Origin: Candidatus Omnitrophota bacterium
GTDB lineage: Bacteria > Omnitrophota > Gorgyraeia > Zapsychrales > JANLHA01
Direction: 5' to 3'
Length of the DNA stretch: 36,376 nucleotides
NCBI GenBank assembly: GCA_020849375.1
Contig: JADLGJ010000035.1
Location: 1 to 36,376 of the forward strand
Of the stretch, positions 18,909-28,816 are shown in pieces (within the stretch, counting starts at the first letter, position 1; each line of letters opens with the position of its first letter). The translations under genes were made by a program, and so were the position numbers. The notes beneath the pieces were generated by a model that saw only the letters and a list, made by a program, of their open reading frames with translations, had not been told where the DNA came from and did no database searches.

Positions 18909-19865
18909 ATGAAACAAAAATTCTTTATTGGTATTGATGTCGGCGGAACGAAAATCGCGGCTGCTGCGGTTTCAGCGAACGGAAAGATCTTGTCCCGTAA
19001 AAAGATCGCAACTCCCCCCGCCTCAAAACCTTCCGCTATCCTCAAATTGATCATCAGCCTTGTCGATCAAGTTTTGGTCGAAAGCGGTTTACCTATGCAA
19101 AACCTCGGGGGCCTCGGACTTGGCCTCCCCGGCATTGTCGACAAGAATAATCATATCCTCGCGACACCCAATATTGATCTCGCTGGTTTTCCTTTATGCG
19201 AGAAACTTAAAAAAAAGTTCCGCGTTAAGATCGCTGCCGGCAATGATGTCAATCTCGGCCTGCTCGGCGAACAATGGCTCGGAGCCGGACAGAAAGCTGA
19301 TGATATTATTGGCATTTTCCCGGGAACCGGTGTCGGCGGAGCCATCATTATCGACGACAAACTCGTGACCGGCACACAAGGCGCAGCGGCAGAGATCGGA
19401 CACATGATCATGATGATGGACGGCCCACGCTGTAACTGCGGCAATCACGGCTGCCTTGAAGCTTTTGCCGGGCGCTGGGCGATCGAACGCGACATCCGTG
19501 CCGCAATGCAAAAAGGCCGCAAAAGCTTGATCAGCGGACTCATGGACGGCAAACAGGGACCGATTAAAAGTAAATTCCTCAAGAATGCTTTAGCCGCAAA
19601 AGACCCCATCACTGTTGACGTCATGACCAGGGCCGCGAAAACGTTAGGGTTGGCCTGCATTAATGTCCGTCATATTTTCAACCCGCAATTGATCATTCTC
19701 GGCGGTGGGGTCATTGAAGCGTGCGGCGATTTCCTCCTCCCGATCATCAACAAAACATTCCACACTGACCCCTTCTTTGCCAAGATCGACAAATGCAAGA
19801 TCGTCACCTCAAAACTCGGCGACGATGCGGTTATTCTCGGGGCGGTCGCCCTCGTCAAGAAATAA
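18909..19865 (+). CDS. ROK family sugar kinase (glucokinase-like)
   Basis: Cytoplasmic ROK-family kinase, 318 residues; glucose is the most likely substrate, but N-acetylmannosamine or fructose kinases of this family look similar. The ATP phosphate motif DVGGTKIAAAAV is at 10-21, the catalytic Asp in GNDVNLG, a second phosphate motif FPGTGVGG near 138-145, and the ROK zinc site GHMIMMMDGPRCNCGNHGCLE is complete (His plus three Cys). No ribosome site precedes the ATG, which agrees with a leaderless transcript. It ends 2 bases before the convergent ppk gene, with no terminator between them. Confidence 0.9.
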   Translation: MKQKFFIGIDVGGTKIAAAAVSANGKILSRKKIATPPASKPSAILKLIISLVDQVLVESGLPMQNLGGLGLGLPGIVDKNNHILATPNIDLAGFPLCEKLKKKFRVKIAAGNDVNLGLLGEQWLGAGQKADDIIGIFPGTGVGGAIIIDDKLVTGTQGAAAEIGHMIMMMDGPRCNCGNHGCLEAFAGRWAIERDIRAAMQKGRKSLISGLMDGKQGPIKSKFLKNALAAKDPITVDVMTRAAKTLGLACINVRHIFNPQLIILGGGVIEACGDFLLPIINKTFHTDPFFAKIDKCKIVTSKLGDDAVILGAVALVKK

Positions 19866-19867
19866 AA

Positions 19868-21904
19868 CTATCTTCCGTAGTAGCTGATCATCCGTTCCTG
19901 GAAATTAAATTTTTCTTCATTATCTTTTTGGCGGGTATATTTTCGGTCGGGCTGTAACAAGCGGGATTTGGAATTATCTTTCCAGCACATGTCCATCAAG
20001 TACTGTAAATGTTCTTTGATCTCTTCCTGGTAAATCTCAAAGAGAAGTTCAATGCGACTGTCAAAATTGCGGCTCATCCAATCGGCAGACGACAAAAAGA
20101 CGCGCGGATTGCCATTATTATTAAAGATCATGACGCGGGTGTGTTCCAAGAACCGCCCGACGATACTTTTGACCTCAATATTCTCGCTCAAGCCCGGCAC
20201 GCCAGGGATCAAACAGCAGATCCCGCGGACGACCAACTTGATCTTCACTCCGGCCTTTGACGCCTCATATAGTTTATCGATCATCTGCACATCTTCGAGC
20301 GAGTTCATTTTCGCGCTGATCAAACCGCTTTTAGAACGTTTTTGGTTCTCAATCTCACGATCAATGAGTTCAAAGAAATATTTGCGCATATCGTTCGGCG
20401 AGGACACGACACGTTTCCACATCGACGGTAAAGAATATCCGGTAATAACGTTAAAGACGTCGGAAATGTCCCGCGCCACATCGTCGTTCGCGGTGAAATA
20501 GCCGATGTCGGTATAAACGCGCGCCGTTTTCTCGTTATAATTTCCCGTCGAGAGATGGACATAGCGGCGGATACGGTCTTCCTCTTTGCGAACGATGAGT
20601 GTCATCTTAGAATGGATCTTGATATTCGCGATCCCGTAAATGACGTGGCAGCCGGCATCTTCCAGAACTTTCGCCCAACGAATATTCTTCTCTTCATCAA
20701 AACGGGCCTTGATCTCGACAAGGATGGTCACCTGTTTTTTGTTTTGCGCCGCCTCGACCAAAGCGCTGATGATCGCCGAATCTTCATTCGCGCGATAAAG
20801 CGTCATTTTAATGGCCAGGACATTCGGGTCATGAGCGGCGGTCTGGATCAAATCCACCGTCGGATAAAAAGACTGGAAGGGTAAATGAGAAATGAAATCC
20901 CCCTGGCTGATCCGTTCAAAAATATTCTCGTACTCGATCTTGGCGGGCTTATATTCACGGTACGATAAAGCAGGGTTGTCCAATAGACGCGCCAATTCAA
21001 AAAGGCAGCTCAAGTCCAGCGTCCCCCCGATACTGACAACTTCTTCTTTGGGGAATCCTAACCCCTGGCAAAGAATATCCAAGAATTCAGGCGCACAGGA
21101 CTTTTCGATCTCGAGATGAACGACCTTAGCCCGCATCCGCTGTTTGACTTCTTGCTCGATGGCGACCAGAAGGTCTTCAGCGAATTCTTCCGCCACATAA
21201 AGTTCGCTGTCACGCATGACGCGGAAAAGAGTTTGTTCCTGCAATTGGTATCCGCGAAAAAAATTCTTAAGATACGCACGGATGATCTCTTCGACCATGA
21301 TAAAACAGGCTTCGCCACGCTCCGACGGCAAACGGACAAACCGCGAAACGTTCTTTGGCACCGGAATGATCGCTAAGTGCGGCTTATTGTCACGCAGGAC
21401 ATTGACCGCAAAAGCGATAGTTTTCGACGGTAAGATCGGAAAAGGATGCCCCTGGTCAACAGCCATCGGCGTAATGATCGGGAACAATGTGGATTCAAAA
21501 TATTTACGGGTTTCGCGTTCCTGCTCCGGCGTCAATTCTTCATGGTTTTTAAAAAAGACCTTATTCTTTTCGAGGTCTTTTCTCATCTTCCCCTGAAAAA
21601 CCTCATAAAACTTCTTCGTCAACACATCCGCCTGCTTACGGACCTCAACAAAAAGCTCCTCAGGGAAATAACCGAATTTGTCTTTGTGGCTGTACTTAGA
21701 ATCGATCAATCGCTTTAACCCCGCAAGCCGCACCATATAAAACTCGTCAAGGTTACTGGTAAAGATCGCCAAGAATCTTAAACGTTCCAACAAAGGATTC
21801 GTGTTGTCGCTCGCTTCTTCAAGCACACGCTCATTGAACATGAGCCAGCTCAAGTCACGAGCAATAAATTTTTCTTTAGGGTCCAACGGGCCTGCCGATG
21901 TCAT
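19868..21904 (-). CDS. ppk1: polyphosphate kinase 1
   Basis: Makes polyphosphate from ATP, reversibly. At 678 residues it has the family's four parts: an N-terminal helical domain (LSWLMFNERVLEEA, FLAIFTSNLDEFYMVR), a head domain (MAVDQGHPFPILPSKTIAF), and two phospholipase-D-like catalytic domains. The phospho-acceptor histidine is probably in IKIHSKMTLIVR, with the second in RFLEHTRVMIF; the Mg/ATP segment TLYRANEDS and the VHLSTGNYNEKTARVYTD block are intact. It starts 9 bases after the ppx gene end, so synthesis and degradation enzymes share one operon. Confidence 0.96.
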   Translation of the reverse strand: MTSAGPLDPKEKFIARDLSWLMFNERVLEEASDNTNPLLERLRFLAIFTSNLDEFYMVRLAGLKRLIDSKYSHKDKFGYFPEELFVEVRKQADVLTKKFYEVFQGKMRKDLEKNKVFFKNHEELTPEQERETRKYFESTLFPIITPMAVDQGHPFPILPSKTIAFAVNVLRDNKPHLAIIPVPKNVSRFVRLPSERGEACFIMVEEIIRAYLKNFFRGYQLQEQTLFRVMRDSELYVAEEFAEDLLVAIEQEVKQRMRAKVVHLEIEKSCAPEFLDILCQGLGFPKEEVVSIGGTLDLSCLFELARLLDNPALSYREYKPAKIEYENIFERISQGDFISHLPFQSFYPTVDLIQTAAHDPNVLAIKMTLYRANEDSAIISALVEAAQNKKQVTILVEIKARFDEEKNIRWAKVLEDAGCHVIYGIANIKIHSKMTLIVRKEEDRIRRYVHLSTGNYNEKTARVYTDIGYFTANDDVARDISDVFNVITGYSLPSMWKRVVSSPNDMRKYFFELIDREIENQKRSKSGLISAKMNSLEDVQMIDKLYEASKAGVKIKLVVRGICCLIPGVPGLSENIEVKSIVGRFLEHTRVMIFNNNGNPRVFLSSADWMSRNFDSRIELLFEIYQEEIKEHLQYLMDMCWKDNSKSRLLQPDRKYTRQKDNEEKFNFQERMISYYGR

Positions 21905-21913
21905 AAGAATCCT

Positions 21914-23452
21914 TTAGGTATCCCGGCCTTTAACGGTCAAAGTCACACGGTTCCCTGTGATCTCTTCGAACATTTCTTTCTTATCTTTAAAGAACGCACG
22001 CTCCAACAACAGGTTATCCGACGAATGCGCAATGATATTGACATCTCCTTTGGCCGTAGAAACGACTTCGATCTTTTTGATCTTCTGTTTATGCGAACGG
22101 TCCAAAGCGTTCGCAATACGCAGCAGCGCACTCAATTTCTGGACCACGATCTGAGAATCGGACGCCAGCGTGTTATAAAGGAAATGCGCCGCCGTCGGCG
22201 TGCCTTTGCGGTGATACCGCGCAATCGCAGCGATCATGTTCATTTCATCTTCGGTCAAGCGGAAAAGGTTGAGCGAACTGATAATGTACTCACTGTGCTT
22301 ATGATGTGTGCGGTTATTGACGAACATGCCAATGTCATGGAGGTACGCGGCCAGCGTTAAGTAGATCAACTCCTCATCTTTTAACCCTAAGCTGTCCTTT
22401 AATTGGTTAAACAAGGATCCAGCCAGCTCAGCGACATGGCGGCTGTGATTAAGGTCCAGCTTATACTTGCCACACAAATTTTGCGCTACCGAGATGAGTT
22501 GATTCGTTTTATTATTTTCCTGAATGTTTTCCAACTTGAAGATCATATTGGCCATCACCGCTTCCGCCAAGGATGTCTCCAGCATATAAATATATTTGTT
22601 TTTTGTTAAACGAAAGATCTTATTAACAATGATGGCGTAACCAGCCATGGTCTCTGCGATATCAACGGGAACTTTATGCGTCATCGCGACTTCTTCCGGG
22701 CTGCTTTCGGTCAACTTGGCCAACAGCTCATCGCTTTCCTTATCGGAAAAAATAAAGAATTCTTTTTCGCGGCGCCGGCCTGAAAGAAAATTGTTCAAAT
22801 AAGACGAGTAATTCTCATCAACGACAATAATATCGTCAAGTTTCAAATGGGGAATGGTTTTTTTGACATACAGAATCTCATTGGTGATGTATTCTTCGAC
22901 CGCTTCATAAACTTCCTGCAAACTGCCGTCCAAGCTGTTCATAAAATTCTTCAGGCGCAGTGTCCCGACCGGGATACCCACGCTCATTTGCGTAAAGCCG
23001 TTCTCGAGCACAGAAATATCAACGCTTCCCGCACCCAGTTCCACGATCAGGAGATTCTTCTGATGGATCGGATATTTTTTCTTGAGCTTATGAGTTAAAA
23101 AAGCGTCAATGTAATAAACGACGTCCCCTACGTTCAAAACCTCGACCTTCAGCCCGGTTTTGCGTAACACGGTATCACAAAACATGTCACGATTAGCCGC
23201 TTCCCGGACCGCGGTGGTCGCGATCACGCGGACATTGGTGACATCGTATTCCTTCAGGCGCTCCTGGTACTTTTCAAGGATGGAAATGGTCTGATTGATC
23301 GTTTCCTGGGCAATACGGCCCCGGAAAAAGGTATTACGGCCGATCGGAACGACATTTTTGAGGGATTCGAGGACTTTGATCTCGTCACCGGCTTTTTCGC
23401 CAATGACCAATTTGAGTGAATTTGAACCGATATCAAGGACTGCGGCACGCAT
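21914..23452 (-). CDS. ppx: Ppx/GppA-type protein with C-terminal HD domain (active-site motifs altered)
   Basis: Exopolyphosphatase / pppGpp phosphohydrolase family, 512 residues: an ASKHA phosphatase domain (1-310) and an HD domain (about 340-500; NHSRHVAELAG, AAYLHDIGMF, HHKHSEY). Loop 1, DIGSNSLKLVIG (7-18), is normal. The usual second loop DIGGGSTE is ELGAGSVD (138-145), and the segment that carries the catalytic glutamate in E. coli Ppx (NEEARL) reads GDVVYY (109-114), so phosphatase activity may be reduced or changed. The HD metal motif is intact. GGAG stands 8 bases before the ATG. First gene of the ppx-ppk operon; a perfect inverted repeat precedes it. Confidence 0.88.
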   Translation of the reverse strand: MRAAVLDIGSNSLKLVIGEKAGDEIKVLESLKNVVPIGRNTFFRGRIAQETINQTISILEKYQERLKEYDVTNVRVIATTAVREAANRDMFCDTVLRKTGLKVEVLNVGDVVYYIDAFLTHKLKKKYPIHQKNLLIVELGAGSVDISVLENGFTQMSVGIPVGTLRLKNFMNSLDGSLQEVYEAVEEYITNEILYVKKTIPHLKLDDIIVVDENYSSYLNNFLSGRRREKEFFIFSDKESDELLAKLTESSPEEVAMTHKVPVDIAETMAGYAIIVNKIFRLTKNKYIYMLETSLAEAVMANMIFKLENIQENNKTNQLISVAQNLCGKYKLDLNHSRHVAELAGSLFNQLKDSLGLKDEELIYLTLAAYLHDIGMFVNNRTHHKHSEYIISSLNLFRLTEDEMNMIAAIARYHRKGTPTAAHFLYNTLASDSQIVVQKLSALLRIANALDRSHKQKIKKIEVVSTAKGDVNIIAHSSDNLLLERAFFKDKKEMFEEITGNRVTLTVKGRDT

Positions 23453-23492
23453 AGAATTGCTCCAAATTAATTGAGGTAATCCCCTGCGGGGA

Positions 23493-23526
23493 TAGACCCA
23501 GCTTTTCTACATTTAAGCTGGGTCTA
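23493..23526. repeat. perfect 12-bp inverted repeat upstream of ppx
   Basis: TAGACCCAGCTT (23493-23504) and its exact complement AAGCTGGGTCTA (23515-23526) flank a 10-base loop, 41 bases before the ppx start. A second short palindrome, CCCCTGCGGGG (23481-23491), follows on the transcript. No T-run follows, so it is more likely a leader structure or operator than a terminator. Confidence 0.65.
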
Positions 23527-23595
23527 GGATACCAGATTTGTCCTATTAAAGCTAAAGGATTTTTAAGGCAGGAAGGTGACAAAAAAGCAAACGAT

Positions 23596-23679
23596 GGGAA
23601 AAATAGGCTTCTGGCGAGTTCCGCAGCCACTCAGCTTTGCTGAGTGCGCGAGGACTGGTTGAGCAAAGAAGGCCTATTT
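23596..23679 (-). terminator. extended stem-loop terminator of the lipid-modification operon
   Basis: Outer arms AAATAGGC (23601-23608) with GCCTATTT (23672-23679) and an inner perfect 8-bp hairpin CACTCAGC/GCTGAGTG (23628-23635 with 23639-23646) form one long, partly paired rod. On the minus strand it ends in TTTTTCCC. It starts 11 bases after the stop at 23690. Confidence 0.65.
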
Positions 23680-23689
23680 CTTAACGCCT

Positions 23690-24946
23690 TTATATTTTGT
23701 GGTTATTCGGCCTTGTATAAACTGCCTGAGCGACACTGATATTGCGAGTTTTGAATGCGGCTTCGCAATACGACCAATAATAATTCCACTTGCGGAAAAA
23801 CGCGTCGTCAAATCCCAACTCTTTGACTTCCGCGGCCCTGGCATTGAAATTCTCCCGCCACATCGCCAGAGTGCGGACATAGTGATCAGTGATGTCTTCG
23901 TAATCCAAAAGACACAAAGAACCGGTACGGTTGAGCCCCTGAATGATCCTCTTCATCGACGGCAAAAGACTGCCCGGGAAAATATGCTTTTGGATCCAAT
24001 CCACATTATCACGGAAACTTTCGTAGCGATGATCCGGAGAAAGGATCATTTGCAACCCCAAAAGCCCGTCTTTCGCCAAAAGCTCATGGCATTTTGCAAA
24101 ATAAGTGTCCAAATACTTATCACCGACCGCCTCGATCATCTCAATAGAGACGATCTTATCGAACTTCCCTTCCATCAATCGGTAATCGAGGAATTTAACT
24201 TCCGCCAACTTATTGATCCCCTCTTCAAAGAACCGTTTTGTTGCATAATCGAACTGCTCGCGGGAAACCGTCAAGGCCGTGACGTGACAACCATAGTTCT
24301 TGGCCGCATGGACCGCAAATCCGCCCCATCCGCCGCCGATCTCCAAAACTTTATCGCTTTCTTTGAGCCGAAGTTTTTGGCAAAGTTCATCGTATTTCTG
24401 GATCTGTGCCTGCTGCAGGCCCTGATCCGGCTTTTTAAAATACGCGCTGGAATAAGTCATCGTCTGGTCTAAAAAAAGCTTAAAGAAATCATTACCAAGA
24501 TCATAGTGCGCGGAAATATTTCTGCGGCTCCCATAGACCGAGTTCATCTTAGCGAGATGCTTAATAACATTTAGAAGCCCCAACCAGTTGACCGGGGTCA
24601 TTTTCTTTTTATCCGCCATCAAGGTCGGGTGATTTTCGACATTACGGATCATCCATTCAATGACCCGAGTAATGTCGGTCGTGTCCCAATCTCCGTCGAC
24701 ATAAGATTCACCAAAGCCCACATCGCCCGTCCAAAAACATTTTCTGAACATATTCCGATTACGCATCGTGATGTCGGCTTGCACTCCGCCCTGTCCGTCC
24801 CCATAGAGGAACTTACGCCCATCGGGAAGCTCTACCGTTAAGCGGCCTTCGCGCATCGGCTTAAAGATCATGTCGAAAATGGACTCATAAAGATCTCTTT
24901 TAGCGGTACCAGCTAATTTTATCGTTTCAACTTTTTCTCCAAGCAC
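23690..24946 (-). CDS. cyclopropane-fatty-acyl-phospholipid synthase family methyltransferase (first copy)
   Basis: SAM-dependent enzyme that methylates or methylenates unsaturated acyl chains of membrane phospholipids. An N-terminal lipid-binding domain (to about 125) precedes the methyltransferase fold, with SAM motif VLEIGGGWGGFAVHAA near 185 and the family segments RRNISAHYDLGNDFF, MTYSSAYF, YCEAAF. I place the start at the GTG at 24946 (418 residues), because AAGGAGG stands 6-7 bases before it; it overlaps the DUF1365 stop by 20 bases. Last gene of a five-gene operon that holds a second family member. Product could be cyclopropane, methyl-branched or furan acyl chains. Confidence 0.9.
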   Translation of the reverse strand: MLGEKVETIKLAGTAKRDLYESIFDMIFKPMREGRLTVELPDGRKFLYGDGQGGVQADITMRNRNMFRKCFWTGDVGFGESYVDGDWDTTDITRVIEWMIRNVENHPTLMADKKKMTPVNWLGLLNVIKHLAKMNSVYGSRRNISAHYDLGNDFFKLFLDQTMTYSSAYFKKPDQGLQQAQIQKYDELCQKLRLKESDKVLEIGGGWGGFAVHAAKNYGCHVTALTVSREQFDYATKRFFEEGINKLAEVKFLDYRLMEGKFDKIVSIEMIEAVGDKYLDTYFAKCHELLAKDGLLGLQMILSPDHRYESFRDNVDWIQKHIFPGSLLPSMKRIIQGLNRTGSLCLLDYEDITDHYVRTLAMWRENFNARAAEVKELGFDDAFFRKWNYYWSYCEAAFKTRNISVAQAVYTRPNNHKI

Positions 24947-25706
24947 GGAGAACCTCCTTCTGCAAATGCGGATGATCTTGTTTCGGATAAAAAGGGACTT
25001 TCTTAAAATAAAGCCACAGCGCGTGCACATGGATCAATGCGATCACGTTCAAAGTGACGAATGGAAAACGCAATGTTAGCCAGAGCAAGTTGCGTTTATT
25101 GAGCGCCCTGCGCTTTCCCGTCAATGAAGCGTAAAGGATCTTCTCCCCGTCGCTAACATCATCAACGCGGATGTCCAGACGTTCATCCGGGATCTTAAAA
25201 TTAAAATCGAACGAAATATCCAATTTTGAGAATGGCGAAATGTAGTAGAGCTTCCCCTGTTCGTCCTTAAAGGACTCACCTTGCAAGGCTGACGGAGGCA
25301 GAATAAAAGATTTGATCTCACCGAAAGTATTGCCGACCTCGGGAACCGAGCATAACGGCTGGCCGTTCTTATCAAAACAAAAATAAACGGAGATCGGATT
25401 AAAAACATAACCGAAGGTCCGTAAATTTGCCAACAACATCACGCGGCCAACTTCCTGAGTGATCCCCTTCGAACGCAGAAAATACAGCAGATTCTCCCGG
25501 GCATTAGATTGGCCAAAGGGCAAATGATCGTCGTCATAAAAACTATACAGCCGCCAGCGGTTATGCCCGACCAAAGAATTCTTTTGACAGAGCGCATCGA
25601 TCTCATCGAGATCAATGTAGAACATAAAGATCTTATGGCGCAAGCGGTGCTGTTTCGGCTTGGTCCGCAAATGCATCACGGTACACTCATAAAGGCATGA
25701 GTTCAT
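24927..25706 (-). CDS. DUF1365 family protein
   Basis: A 259-residue protein of the DUF1365 family, recognised by the N-terminal CLYECTVMHLRTKP, HKIFMFYIDLDE and LLANLRTFGYVFNPISVYFCF blocks. One hydrophobic stretch near 210-230 may touch the membrane. The biochemical role is unknown, but the family almost always sits beside an FAD amine-oxidase-like protein and a CFA-type methyltransferase, exactly as here, and is associated with acyl-chain modification. Its ATG overlaps the preceding stop (ATGA), and its end overlaps the next gene by 20 bases, indicating coupled translation. Confidence 0.9.
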   Translation of the reverse strand: MNSCLYECTVMHLRTKPKQHRLRHKIFMFYIDLDEIDALCQKNSLVGHNRWRLYSFYDDDHLPFGQSNARENLLYFLRSKGITQEVGRVMLLANLRTFGYVFNPISVYFCFDKNGQPLCSVPEVGNTFGEIKSFILPPSALQGESFKDEQGKLYYISPFSKLDISFDFNFKIPDERLDIRVDDVSDGEKILYASLTGKRRALNKRNLLWLTLRFPFVTLNVIALIHVHALWLYFKKVPFYPKQDHPHLQKEVLRAWRKS

Positions 25707-26971
25707 TGCCAGGTCATCTCTCCTGTGATCGCACGCGCCACCTCAAGCCCCGAGTTGAAGGCATCTTCATGGAAACCGTAACGGAAATAACTGCCGCAAA
25801 AATACACCGGGCCGCTCTGATTTAATTTATAAAGATCGTCCTGCGCCCGGATCGCTCCCAAACTGAACAACGGATGGTCATATTCGCCGCGCCAAAGGAC
25901 TTTTTTCGGGTCAACTTCTCCGGGATCATTGACAGAAACAAAATAATCTTTATTCTTAGAAACTTTTTGCAGGCTATTCATGTAATAGATCGTCGCCGGC
26001 AACAACCGGCCGCTCCGGTCCGAAGTGATGCGATAATTCCATGAGGACCAAACATTCCGGGTCTTCGGCATCACCGAAGTGTCAGTATGCAACACCACGT
26101 GATTATTCTGATATTGGAATTCTTTTAACAACCACCGCTCTGCAGGCGTCGCTCCTTCGCCCAATAACCGCAGACTTTGGTCCGCATGGCAGGCCATCAC
26201 AACATGGTCATAAGTTTTCTTTTGCCCATTGATATCGAAGACCGAAACCTTTCCAAATTCACGCAGCACTTCCATAGCCATATTCCCTAACAACACTTTC
26301 CCAGGGAATAATTGCATCAGGCGGTCACGGTAGATGCGGCTCCCTCCTGGAAGAGTGCGCCATTGATAATGGCCGCGCAGCCCGAGAAAGCCGTGATTCT
26401 TAAAAAATCGTACCAAGGTCACGATCGGAAAGTCGAGGATCTTATCCGGGGGAGTTGACCACACTGCTGAACTCATCGGGATCAAATATTTATGTAGAAA
26501 ATCATGCCCTAATTTCTTTTCTTGGACATAATTAGCGACCGTGTGGAATTGATATTTCTCGTTAGTCAAAACTTCCGGGGACTCACGGTTAAAACGGTGC
26601 ATCGCGAACAACAGGGCCCAAAAACTCGGCTTAAAGATATTGATCCTTTGGCCAAACAGGCCATTGAGCCCGGTCCCGCAATACTCTAACCCGCTCGGCA
26701 AATGCTGAACACTGAACGACATTGACGTTGGCATCGTCGGGACTTCCAACTCACGAAAAAAACGGGTCAAATTCGGATAAGTGATCTCGTTATAAACCAT
26801 AAAACCAGTATCCACATAAACGGTCTCGGAGTCTGTTTTTAAGGTGACCGTGTTAGTATGTCCTCCAGCATAATTATCTTTTTCGTAAAACGTGATATCG
26901 TATTTATCTTTTAAAAAATACGCTGCCGACATTCCGGCGATCCCGGTCCCGATGATCGCGACTGATTTCAT
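25703..26971 (-). CDS. FAD-dependent amine-oxidase-family oxidoreductase
   Basis: Flavoprotein of 422 residues. The N-terminal dinucleotide-binding motif IIGTGIAGMSAAYFL (5-19) and the following acidic residue in FYEKDNYAGGH are intact, and the chain ends with the second flavin motif VYFCGSYFRYGFHEDAFNSG. It resembles the desaturase/oxidase-like NAD(P)-binding proteins paired with DUF1365 and CFA synthases, not true monoamine oxidases. It probably introduces or isomerises a double bond in an acyl chain, or oxidises a methylated one; this is by context. ATGA overlaps with both the gene before and the gene after. Confidence 0.88.
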   Translation of the reverse strand: MKSVAIIGTGIAGMSAAYFLKDKYDITFYEKDNYAGGHTNTVTLKTDSETVYVDTGFMVYNEITYPNLTRFFRELEVPTMPTSMSFSVQHLPSGLEYCGTGLNGLFGQRINIFKPSFWALLFAMHRFNRESPEVLTNEKYQFHTVANYVQEKKLGHDFLHKYLIPMSSAVWSTPPDKILDFPIVTLVRFFKNHGFLGLRGHYQWRTLPGGSRIYRDRLMQLFPGKVLLGNMAMEVLREFGKVSVFDINGQKKTYDHVVMACHADQSLRLLGEGATPAERWLLKEFQYQNNHVVLHTDTSVMPKTRNVWSSWNYRITSDRSGRLLPATIYYMNSLQKVSKNKDYFVSVNDPGEVDPKKVLWRGEYDHPLFSLGAIRAQDDLYKLNQSGPVYFCGSYFRYGFHEDAFNSGLEVARAITGEMTWQ

Positions 26972-28017
26972 ACCACACCCCGCTTATTAAAAAGATAATG
27001 GCTGACGATCCACTCATTGCCGCCATTGTAACCCCACAATTCTGCGCAGGCCATAAAGAAAACACGCCAATAAACCCACCACTTCTGATATTGCTCGCCG
27101 TAGGTTCCCTTAAGGATCGGAATGATCTTATCCCGATGAGCATCCATGTTCTTCAGCCAGCATTCAGACGTTTTTTGATAATGCATCCCCGAAACACGCC
27201 AATGATCCTTGATCTGGAAATGATCCTGAAAAGATAACAAAAGATGGTCCGACGGCATAATCCCGCCGGTAAAGAAATACTTGGCGATCCAGTCCTTATC
27301 ATCCGTGTCGTCGTAAAGATAAGAAAACTCGCGGTGGGTAAAAATATGGACGAAAAGTTTTCCGTCGCTCTTAAGAAAGCTGGCCGCCTTGGCCATCAAC
27401 TTTTCATAATTGCGCATGTGTTCGAACATTTCGACCGAAACAAGGCGGTCAAAACGGCGGGACGTTTCAAAAACATTCATATCCGATGTGATGATCTCAA
27501 GGTTCTTAATGTTACGCGCCTTGGCCTGGCCGTCAATATAGTCTTTCTGCGTGCGGGAATTAGAAACGCCGACAAACTGGCTTTCCGGGAATTTCTGCGC
27601 CATAAACAAGGACAACGAACCCCAACCGCAGCCGAACTCCAGGACGGCTTGCCCATTACGCAAGTCGGCGCGCTCGCAAGTGATGGCGAGCATATCGCGT
27701 TCCGCCTCGGCGAGGTCGGTAACGCCATCACGGAAATAGCAGGAACTATATTTAAGATGCGGCCCGAGGACCAATTTGAAAAATTCGGTAGGAACTTCGT
27801 AATGCTGTTGATTCGCTTCCGGTGTATTGACCGCGATCGGGCTGGCTTTCAATTGATTGATCAGTTGGATCTGCCGGGCTTGCCCGAACTCCAGCCCGTC
27901 CTTTTTCTCAGCAGCGATCTTTTGGCGCAAAAGTTCACGAATGCCGAAACGGATAACGGGATCCGGCAACAGGCCTTTTTCTAATAATCCCTGAGAGAAT
28001 GTGACAAGATTGGCCAT
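26968..28017 (-). CDS. CFA-family methyltransferase (second copy)
   Basis: A second cyclopropane-synthase-like SAM methyltransferase, clearly diverged from the first. It lacks the long N-terminal lipid-binding domain and has the SAM motif VLEFGCGWGSLSLFMA near 130 and the family blocks QQHYEVPTEFF, KYSSCYF, SVEMFEHMRNY, HIFTHREF. The best start is the ATG at 28017 (349 residues), one base after the DUF1295 stop; an in-frame codon at 28086 lies inside that gene. The shorter form resembles the methyltransferases of furan or methylated fatty-acid pathways, so the two copies probably do different steps. Confidence 0.88.
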   Translation of the reverse strand: MANLVTFSQGLLEKGLLPDPVIRFGIRELLRQKIAAEKKDGLEFGQARQIQLINQLKASPIAVNTPEANQQHYEVPTEFFKLVLGPHLKYSSCYFRDGVTDLAEAERDMLAITCERADLRNGQAVLEFGCGWGSLSLFMAQKFPESQFVGVSNSRTQKDYIDGQAKARNIKNLEIITSDMNVFETSRRFDRLVSVEMFEHMRNYEKLMAKAASFLKSDGKLFVHIFTHREFSYLYDDTDDKDWIAKYFFTGGIMPSDHLLLSFQDHFQIKDHWRVSGMHYQKTSECWLKNMDAHRDKIIPILKGTYGEQYQKWWVYWRVFFMACAELWGYNGGNEWIVSHYLFNKRGVV

Positions 28018-28018
28018 A

Positions 28019-28816
28019 TTAAATCTTTCTCTTAGGCAGTGGAACGAACATGCTCGTCGACTGCTGATAGCGGCGGTATTCTTCACCCCGCGATATTAAT
28101 GATTGCGCTTCGGCGAACGGTACGCCAGTGACATTGATCAAGAAATGGTACATGATGAAGGGGCAAACCGCCGCCACCCAACCCCACGGGCTGCCAAGCG
28201 CAAAAACAAAATATCCGACCCACATTAACCATTCAAAGAAATAATTCGGATGGCGAGAATAATACCAGAGCCCCGTATCGCAAGTCTTTCCTTTATTGCT
28301 CGGATCGTTCTTAAATTTCTTCAGTTGCTCGTCGGCGATCGTTTCACCCGCGAAACCGGCCAGCCAGATGAAAACGCCAATAATCTCAATGGCCTGCAAT
28401 TCCGGGCGGCCATTGACGGCGATCAAAAGAAATGGCACGGATAAGACCAAAGCCAAAAGTGCTTCAACTTCAAAAAGCGCTAGAAACTTCCATTCCACAT
28501 TTGGCTTCCAATCTTCCCTGATCTTCTGATACCGTCGGTCTTCACGCTTCTCACGGGTCATCCGTGTCACCAGCAGGATACTCAACCGAAGCCCCCAAAC
28601 GGACACCATCAATACGATCAAGGCCGAGCGGAGAAGAAAACCATCACCTTTAACGGCATAAAATACCGCCAACAGGACCAATGACAAAGCCCACCCAATG
28701 TCCACGAATCCGGCATTATTGATCAGCAGACTTAAAACCCAAAAGACGAACATCAAGGCCGCGGCTAATAGGAACCCTTCAAACGCAAATATTTTAAAAA
28801 GAGCTACTATTTCCAT
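28019..28816 (-). CDS. DUF1295 (steroid 5-alpha reductase-like) membrane protein
   Basis: A polytopic inner-membrane protein of 265 residues, with about six or seven hydrophobic helices. It shows the family end-signature: TCDTGLWYYSRHPNYFFEWL (near 183-202), SPWGW, and EEYRRYQQSTSMFVP. Relatives use NADPH-linked reduction of a double bond, so in this operon it might reduce an acyl intermediate; no activity is proven. First gene of the five-gene lipid operon. 84 bases separate it from the PAS-LuxR gene on the same strand, and a small inverted repeat lies in that gap. Confidence 0.9.
   Translation of the reverse strand: MEIVALFKIFAFEGFLLAAALMFVFWVLSLLINNAGFVDIGWALSLVLLAVFYAVKGDGFLLRSALIVLMVSVWGLRLSILLVTRMTREKREDRRYQKIREDWKPNVEWKFLALFEVEALLALVLSVPFLLIAVNGRPELQAIEIIGVFIWLAGFAGETIADEQLKKFKNDPSNKGKTCDTGLWYYSRHPNYFFEWLMWVGYFVFALGSPWGWVAAVCPFIMYHFLINVTGVPFAEAQSLISRGEEYRRYQQSTSMFVPLPKRKI

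Follow-up and report, generated by a model that had tools for sequence, protein, structure and literature searches.

The window, by which we mean the whole stretch of 36,376 nucleotides that was analysed, comes from a Candidatus Omnitrophota genome of 1.55 Mb in 123 contigs (88% complete). Its minus strand carries, at 21914..23452, a gene for a Ppx/GppA-like protein of 512 amino acids that appears to have lost the catalytic base of its family and whose open reading frame runs from an ATG at 23452 to a stop codon finishing at 21914. Only 9 nt (AGGATTCTT, with an AGGA inside) separate this stop codon from the ATG of an intact ppk1 gene, directly downstream on the same strand (19868..21904), which codes for a polyphosphate kinase 1 (PPK1) of 678 amino acids (TIGR03705, 841.8 bits for a cut-off of 465.85). 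A preliminary description of this DNA had placed the Ppx-like gene in front of ppk1, and so it lies; from the 9-nt gap, the two genes are probably co-expressed. The PPK1 keeps the equivalents of E. coli R375, R405, H435, H454, R564 and H592, which we take to be the catalytic residues of that enzyme, as do 52 of 52 relatives. Convergent with ppk1 lies a gene for a ROK-family sugar kinase (18909..19865, plus strand; PF00480, 229.2 bits), the product of which scores below the cut-offs of both TIGR00744 glucokinase and NF045942 polyphosphate glucokinase. On the other side, the 237-nt gap 5' of the Ppx-like gene contains an inverted repeat (GACCCAGCTT...AAGCTGGGTC) at 23494-23525, and an Rfam scan of 23400-23760 gave zero matches. 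Upstream on the same strand, 23690-28816 codes for two cyclopropane-synthase-type methyltransferases, a DUF1365 protein, an amine-oxidase-type flavoprotein and a DUF1295 protein.

The Ppx-like protein is a full-length member of the Ppx/GppA family with an ASKHA plus HD-like fold. It matches Pfam Ppx-GppA (PF02541) with 91.8 bits for a cut-off of 27 and Ppx-GppA_III (PF21447) with 96.8 bits for a cut-off of 27.3, and stays below the NCBIfam cut-offs for TIGR03706 exopolyphosphatase (125.2 versus 307 bits), NF008260 GppA (87.8 versus 624) and NF008108 Ppx (81 versus 864). An AlphaFold2 model built from 25 clade sequences has a mean pLDDT of 86.6 and a pTM of 0.80, with residues 378-385 below 50. 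In a Foldseek search with this model, the top rows were Ppx/GppA structures (E ~1e-25); its N-domain superimposes on 3mdq with a VIA Z of 32.1 (302 aligned, 2.8 A), and full-length structural matches have rmsd values of 7-21 A because the domains are arranged differently.

A scan of genome contigs with the single sequence found no matches, whereas an alignment-based scan retrieved 126 relatives, the best 80 of which were kept; tblastn against plasmids yielded 54 records, all below 60% identity. In named records, close homologues are found mostly in Candidatus Omnitrophota MAGs, together with some labelled Elusimicrobia, Auribacterota, Firestonebacteria, Verrucomicrobia or WOR-3. The clade studied here comprises 61 aligned sequences, namely the window protein (P0001) and 60 named loci, without the frame-broken L093. 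Two copies are damaged: L093, with 37 stops in the translated frame, and L013, with one TAA. Three other groups served for comparison. Omnitrophota homologues that retain the catalytic glutamate (L138-L154 and L162; 17 or 18 sequences, 'f54-type' after the commonest family code) are 29% identical to the clade over 500 columns, have equal residue numbering through loop 2 and lie mostly 5' of ppk1 with a ROK gene near, as in the clade. A PVC-type set of 18 (L106-L124 without L121, which holds a stop) carries the labels Planctomycetota, Verrucomicrobiota, Lentisphaerae, Sumerlaeota, a spirochaete and others. Finally, 13 canonical Ppx/GppA come from other Omnitrophota genomes (L125-L137).

Aligned by MAFFT with E. 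coli Ppx (reference sequence from NC_000913), the window protein has V111 for E121, D110 for E120, Y113 for R123, E138 for D143, D145 for E150 and R83 for R93. The segment GDVVYYID (residues 109-116, 23105..23128, minus strand) replaces x-E-E-A-R-L, with the V111 codon (23120-23122) at the catalytic base. Alignment thus bears out the preliminary reading of D-V-V-Y at the E-E-A-R site and of ELGAGSVD as phosphate loop 2 (residues 138-145, 23018..23041); likewise, phosphate loop 1, said there to be intact, is so: DIGSNS (D7-S12, 23417..23434) has its D7 in 60 of 61 clade members, with one gap. The TTAVR segment (T79 to R83, 23204..23218) is intact as well, T79 and R83 being present in 61/61; we take D7 and R83 as the equivalents of D7 and R86 in D. 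radiodurans PPX (DrPPX). The two loop-2 carboxylates have undergone conservative swaps, to E138 and D145, each in all 61 sequences. The preliminary description had also considered that an alignment might reveal other acidic residues in the right place, which is true of loop 2, acidic through E138 and D145, and not of the base position, occupied by V.

The register of this segment deserves attention, since alignments to distant sequences differ. In the phmmer alignment with DrPPX, gapped in the segment, D116 stands opposite the catalytic E114, and in the HMMER profile alignment, also gapped there, V108 does so (counted from the printed letters). By contrast, hhalign aligns the clade without gaps to the PVC-type set through the catalytic segment, and to the E-retaining Omnitrophota set over residues 82-161; against the canonical set, V111 faces E121 with a two-residue gap right behind. 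All 111 sequences in the five groups counted have a distance of 8 between residues 103 and 111, and the distance between residue 111 and loop 2 is 27 in 59/61 clade members, 17/17 E-retaining Omnitrophota and 16/18 PVC-type sequences. We adopted the gap-free register because the two closer sets align without gaps and with equal spacing; since a helix at 108-123 is also shared by the AlphaFold2 models of the window protein and of an E-retaining relative, V111 lies at the catalytic-base position (E. coli E121, DrPPX E114), which in this register has no acidic residue. The gapped HMMER alignments are mutually discordant, and we rejected the idea that the altered site is an alignment artefact in favour of the gap-free register.

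The altered site is itself strongly conserved. At position 111, 45 of the 61 aligned clade members have V and the other 16 have I; a second, partly overlapping set of 17 has V in 13 sequences and I in 4. Within the clade, position 110 is D in 60 sequences and T in one (L096), D116 is D in 59/61, and E138, D145, T79, R83 and N87 are invariant. The motif GD[VI][VI]YYID (109-116) ranks fourth in conservation among 298 eight-residue windows of the N-domain; in a pattern search of 45 loci it was present in 42, the remaining L022, L024 and L167 having GDVVYY or GDIVYY outside the pattern. Mean pairwise identity is 55.3% for the Ppx-like proteins and 60.6% for PPK1, with r 0.86 over 1378 pairs from 53 loci. 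Given this slow protein evolution and an altered motif in 61/61 aligned members, a pseudogene or a sequencing error was rejected; the pattern looks like purifying selection acting on the changed site rather than decay.

Other N-domain changes accompany the loss of the glutamate. The REG-motif Arg, which we equate with DrPPX R302 at the polyphosphate entrance, is replaced by A296 (22565..22567); in the clade this column is A in 32, S in 24, another residue in 5 and Arg in none of 61, whereas a REG-type Arg is found in 18/18 PVC-type, 15/15 readable E-retaining Omnitrophota and 13/13 canonical sequences. D212-E213 (22814..22819) replaces the glycine-rich GG/SG motif, with D212 in 57/61 and E213 in 60/61 clade members, for G in 16/16 and 13/16 readable E-retaining relatives, respectively. 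The column taken for DrPPX R271 has no Arg in the clade and had already none in the E-retaining relatives. Loop 2, listed in the preliminary description among the altered phosphatase motifs, does differ in sequence, but its D-to-E change is no sign of inactivity and we rejected it as such: E also occupies this position in 17/17 E-retaining Omnitrophota and 12/18 PVC-type sequences, and 26 of these 29 relatives keep the catalytic Glu.

The C-terminal HD-type domain III (residues 323-470, 22043..22486; Pfam PF21447) had been described as apparently intact, a claim that the column counts contradict. Where the metal quartet of HD domains is H...HD...D, the window protein reads HHDN, with N448 (22109..22111) at the position where relatives carry the presumed fourth ligand, Asp. 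Position 448 is N in 60/60 readable clade members (N in 15 and S in 1 of 16 readable in the second, overlapping set) and D in 18/18 PVC-type and 14/15 readable E-retaining Omnitrophota sequences. That it corresponds to the last Asp of the HD motif is suggested by an A-D pattern shared with YfbR (KQAD137), D137 of which is presumably a metal ligand; an hhalign comparison of an HD-only set with the single YfbR sequence aligned an unrelated segment and was set aside. D373 is also replaced in 10/61 clade members (N in 7, P in 3), while HHDD is kept in 22/22 stand-alone or phosphoesterase-fused Ppx-type HD domains in the best 80 of the 126 relatives' loci. Because position 448 is always N among readable members and D373 is not always maintained, the HD domain is unlikely to work as a metal hydrolase in this clade. 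H336, H372, HHKH (383-386) and RYHR are nearly invariant, and the conservation of H336, HHKH and RYHR would fit a retained anion-binding role.

In a tree of 95 sequences inferred after removing the trait columns, the 47 clade members included form one branch with an SH-aLRT of 100. This was a quick IQ-TREE search with SH-aLRT support only, with long branches flagged for L135, EcGppA, L113 and L136; it omits L093, L101, L121, the partial L148, L152 and L154 and near-duplicates, and four clade loci were swapped for loci of the same genomes. On this tree, four changes are needed to explain where the catalytic Glu is missing, in keeping with a single event in the clade and separate events in L107 (A), L117 (V) and L118 (L); ppk1 follows the gene in all three. 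Of the 18 PVC-type sequences, 9 have L in place of the loop-2 Glu, one has Q and one has I, and the catalytic Glu is replaced in 3/18; these are further ppk1-linked Ppx that have partly degenerated. The 13 canonical proteins all keep the catalytic Glu, loop-2 Asp being absent in 8 and loop-2 Glu replaced by Q in 7, and the 61 Omnitrophota genomes with ppk1 include none of theirs. Eight of them (L129-L134, L136 and L137, from genomes without a ppk1 match) have kept the catalytic Glu and lost the loop-2 Asp, with Gln for loop-2 Glu in 7/8, and so are a mirror image of the window protein.

The pairing with ppk1 extends across genomes. Among 54 genomes of the order, that of the window included, PF02503 (for ppk1) matched in 28 and PF02541 in the same 28, with one PF02541 match each, and 26 had neither. 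In 384 Omnitrophota genomes, ppk1 occurs in 61, 60 of which have a PF02541 match above cut-off, the exception being G134, which is 75% complete; of these 61, 43 encode a V/I-type and 17 an E-type protein. Conversely, PF02541 matches 77 of the 384 genomes: the 60 with ppk1, 13 with canonical proteins, and G123, G127, G132 and G294, the last carrying a V-type gene at a contig end in a genome without a ppk1 match. Of the 61 named loci L045-L105, 58 have a ppk1 frame at most 300 nt downstream on the same strand, two have it 5-6 kb off and one past the contig end.

Downstream of the gene pair, other genes recur. In 42 clade loci the sequence extends 5.5 kb or more beyond the gene; these contain genes for ROK proteins in 36, CHAD proteins in 25, stand-alone Ppx-type HD proteins in 12, metallophosphoesterase-HD fusions in 8, a CHAD-HD fusion in 1 and PPK2 in 5. 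CHAD domains have been reported as polyphosphate-binding (PMC6537752). In the 54-genome set, 14 of the 28 genomes with ppk1 also have PPK2. Searches of the window genome (88% complete) found neither CHAD nor PPK2 nor another Ppx-type HD protein, which leaves no obvious substitute polyphosphatase there.

Comparison with characterized systems clarifies what the changes may entail. The window protein resembles the Ppx of E. coli and D. radiodurans (PDB 1u6z, 8jgo) in its ASKHA plus HD-like architecture, loop 1 and conserved Arg; it shares HHKH and RYHR with DrPPX and a gene that adjoins ppk with E. coli, although the order is ppx-ppk1 in the clade and ppk-ppx in E. coli. The clade differs from both in having V or I for the catalytic Glu, D for the loop-2 Glu and N for the presumed HD Asp, with the REG Arg mostly A or S and the glycine motif mostly D-E. 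The E-retaining Omnitrophota proteins likewise depart from the clade in keeping E-E-x-R and the loop-2 Glu (17/17), the RD/EG Arg (15/15 readable) and Asp 448 (14/15 readable). In DrPPX, the E114A mutation is reported to lower kcat from 37.95 to 2.11 per s, retaining ~6% of it, and kcat/Km from 2.28 to 0.05, with kcat/Km values of 0.1 for D136A and 0.04 for E143A (PMC11234463), and E. coli Ppx mutants at E121, D143 and E150 are described as having only residual activity (PMC5417653). In M. tuberculosis PPX1, hydrolysis has been assigned to the corresponding Arg and Glu, and metal binding to the two acids of loop 2 (PMC3411833). By analogy with the D. radiodurans and E. coli mutants, hydrolysis by the window protein would be strongly reduced, while D7, S10-S12, R83, E138 and D145 would still be expected to bind Mg2+ and phosphate.

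Two further homologues show how far such predictions can be carried. Neither exopolyphosphatase nor pppGpp hydrolase activity was reportedly detected in Rv1026, a Ppx/GppA homologue of M. tuberculosis, yet it keeps the four named catalytic and metal residues, has a modest ATPase activity and aligns with the N-terminal region only (PMC3411833). Rv1026 shows that activity in this family does not follow from residues alone. Yeast Rtg2p, a Ppx-fold protein with a signalling role, also has its loop-2 Glu replaced (Q165); in contrast, it is eukaryotic and keeps the base Glu (E137), and the cited description mentions no link to a polyphosphate kinase (PMC5417653). In the open-licence PMC literature we recognised no report of an exopolyphosphatase-like protein without the catalytic Glu. 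The Ppx/GppA family is well known; what seems new, as not recognised in that literature, is a clade-wide, doubly altered, ppk1-linked form of it.

The loss of the cutting residue in a strongly conserved altered form suggests binding or regulation instead of cutting. Our favoured explanation, to which we give a probability of roughly 55%, is that of a clade-specific pseudo-exopolyphosphatase that binds without efficient cleavage and has been retained as a partner or regulator of PPK1 that binds phosphate or polyphosphate. The protein would have lost the water-activating Glu and, probably, the HD metal site, and would have retained the Mg2+/phosphate loops and a His/Arg-rich C-terminal domain. 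Most likely, it would bind a phosphorylated ligand (a polyphosphate chain end, a nucleotide or phosphate) without cleaving it efficiently and, encoded next to ppk1 and inherited with it, would anchor, sense or regulate the polyphosphate made by PPK1. Co-occurrence and adjacency suggest PPK1 as the partner. The preliminary description had proposed either binding without cleavage or catalysis by the HD domain: the first alternative is the best reading, the Glu being gone and loop 1, the conserved Arg and the glycines of loop 2 retained, and the second is at odds with N448 and with D373 replaced in 10/61. Against polyphosphate as the ligand of the N-domain, the entrance Arg is never Arg in 61 sequences and D212-E213 adds negative charge; together with the lack of Arg in the R271 column, these changes mean that the N-domain may bind something else, and a nucleotide or another phosphate ligand is about as possible there as polyphosphate. 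A bolder version, which we regard as tentative, would be that the lineage's only Ppx is now a pseudoenzyme with both domains inactive, a dedicated non-hydrolytic partner of PPK1, and that the neighbouring CHAD, stand-alone Ppx-type HD and YfcE-HD fusion proteins have taken over the handling of polyphosphate in part of the lineage.

Alternatively, although we find it rather unlikely, the protein might still be an exopolyphosphatase, with slower or rearranged chemistry in which E138, D145, D110 or D116 positions the water. The full conservation of acids in loop 2, the near invariance of D110 and D116, the one gapped phmmer alignment that sets D116 against DrPPX E114, the residual activity of E114A in that enzyme (PMC11234463) and the fact that this is the sole Ppx/GppA match in the 28 ppk1 genomes of the 54 all speak for it. 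However, in the gap-free register no acid is found at the base and D116 lies five residues further along the helix, D110 is T in L096, which still has an adjacent ppk1, and the entrance Arg is lost. More doubtful is a phosphotransferase, in which an ASKHA site without water-activating Glu would move phosphate from polyphosphate or ATP to ADP, a sugar or another acceptor. P. aeruginosa Ppx has been reported to act as a polyphosphate:ADP phosphotransferase through the same site (PMC4631893), D7, R83 and loop 2 are retained, and the change of the glycine motif to D-E may reflect an altered nucleotide or acceptor side; nothing, however, points to an acceptor or a new base, and the neighbouring ROK gene already provides a sugar-kinase fold. 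Improbable too, and placed after the phosphotransferase, would be a sensor of nucleotides or alarmones whose target need not be PPK1, on the model of Rtg2p, a signalling protein whose Ppx-fold domain has been proposed to bind ATP (PMC5417653): the phosphate loops are indeed retained, but the tight pairing with ppk1 points to polyphosphate, and the Glu that Rtg2p has as E137 is lost in the clade. A shift of hydrolysis to the HD domain, despite the near invariance of H336, H372, HHKH and RYHR, is very improbable in the face of N448 and the replacements of D373, as opposed to the HHDD of the stand-alone and fused domains.

In bacteria, a ppk1 and ppx pair is normally read as polyphosphate synthesis plus degradation. 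Annotation would name the window gene an exopolyphosphatase and predict degradation, while its conserved sequence points the opposite way. If the pseudo-exopolyphosphatase reading is true, the clade would offer a naturally occurring pseudo-Ppx for studying the regulation of PPK1, the ligand of domain III and the consumption of polyphosphate in Omnitrophota, and counts of Ppx genes in metagenomes may overstate polyphosphatase potential.

Several gene arrangements in the ppk1 islands of relatives are worth recording. Fusions of a metallophosphoesterase with a Ppx-GppA_III HD domain (e.g. L036:11689-13023 and L032:9888-11231) number nine among the best 80 of the 126 relatives' loci, eight in the clade and one in a Planctomycetales record; in the one protein scanned, the phosphoesterase is of the YfcE type (TIGR00040), and the fusion is a candidate polyphosphate or dinucleotide polyphosphate hydrolase. 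In some relatives a PPK2 gene lies immediately 5' of the Ppx-like gene (L035:9846-10715), and in Candidatus Omnitrophus magneticus (L098:5394-8527) two tandem Ppx-like frames precede ppk1. Finally, both ROK-DUF498 proteins scanned (L036:13072-14421 and L037:3788-5107) combine a ROK kinase with a C-terminal DUF498 in the same frame.
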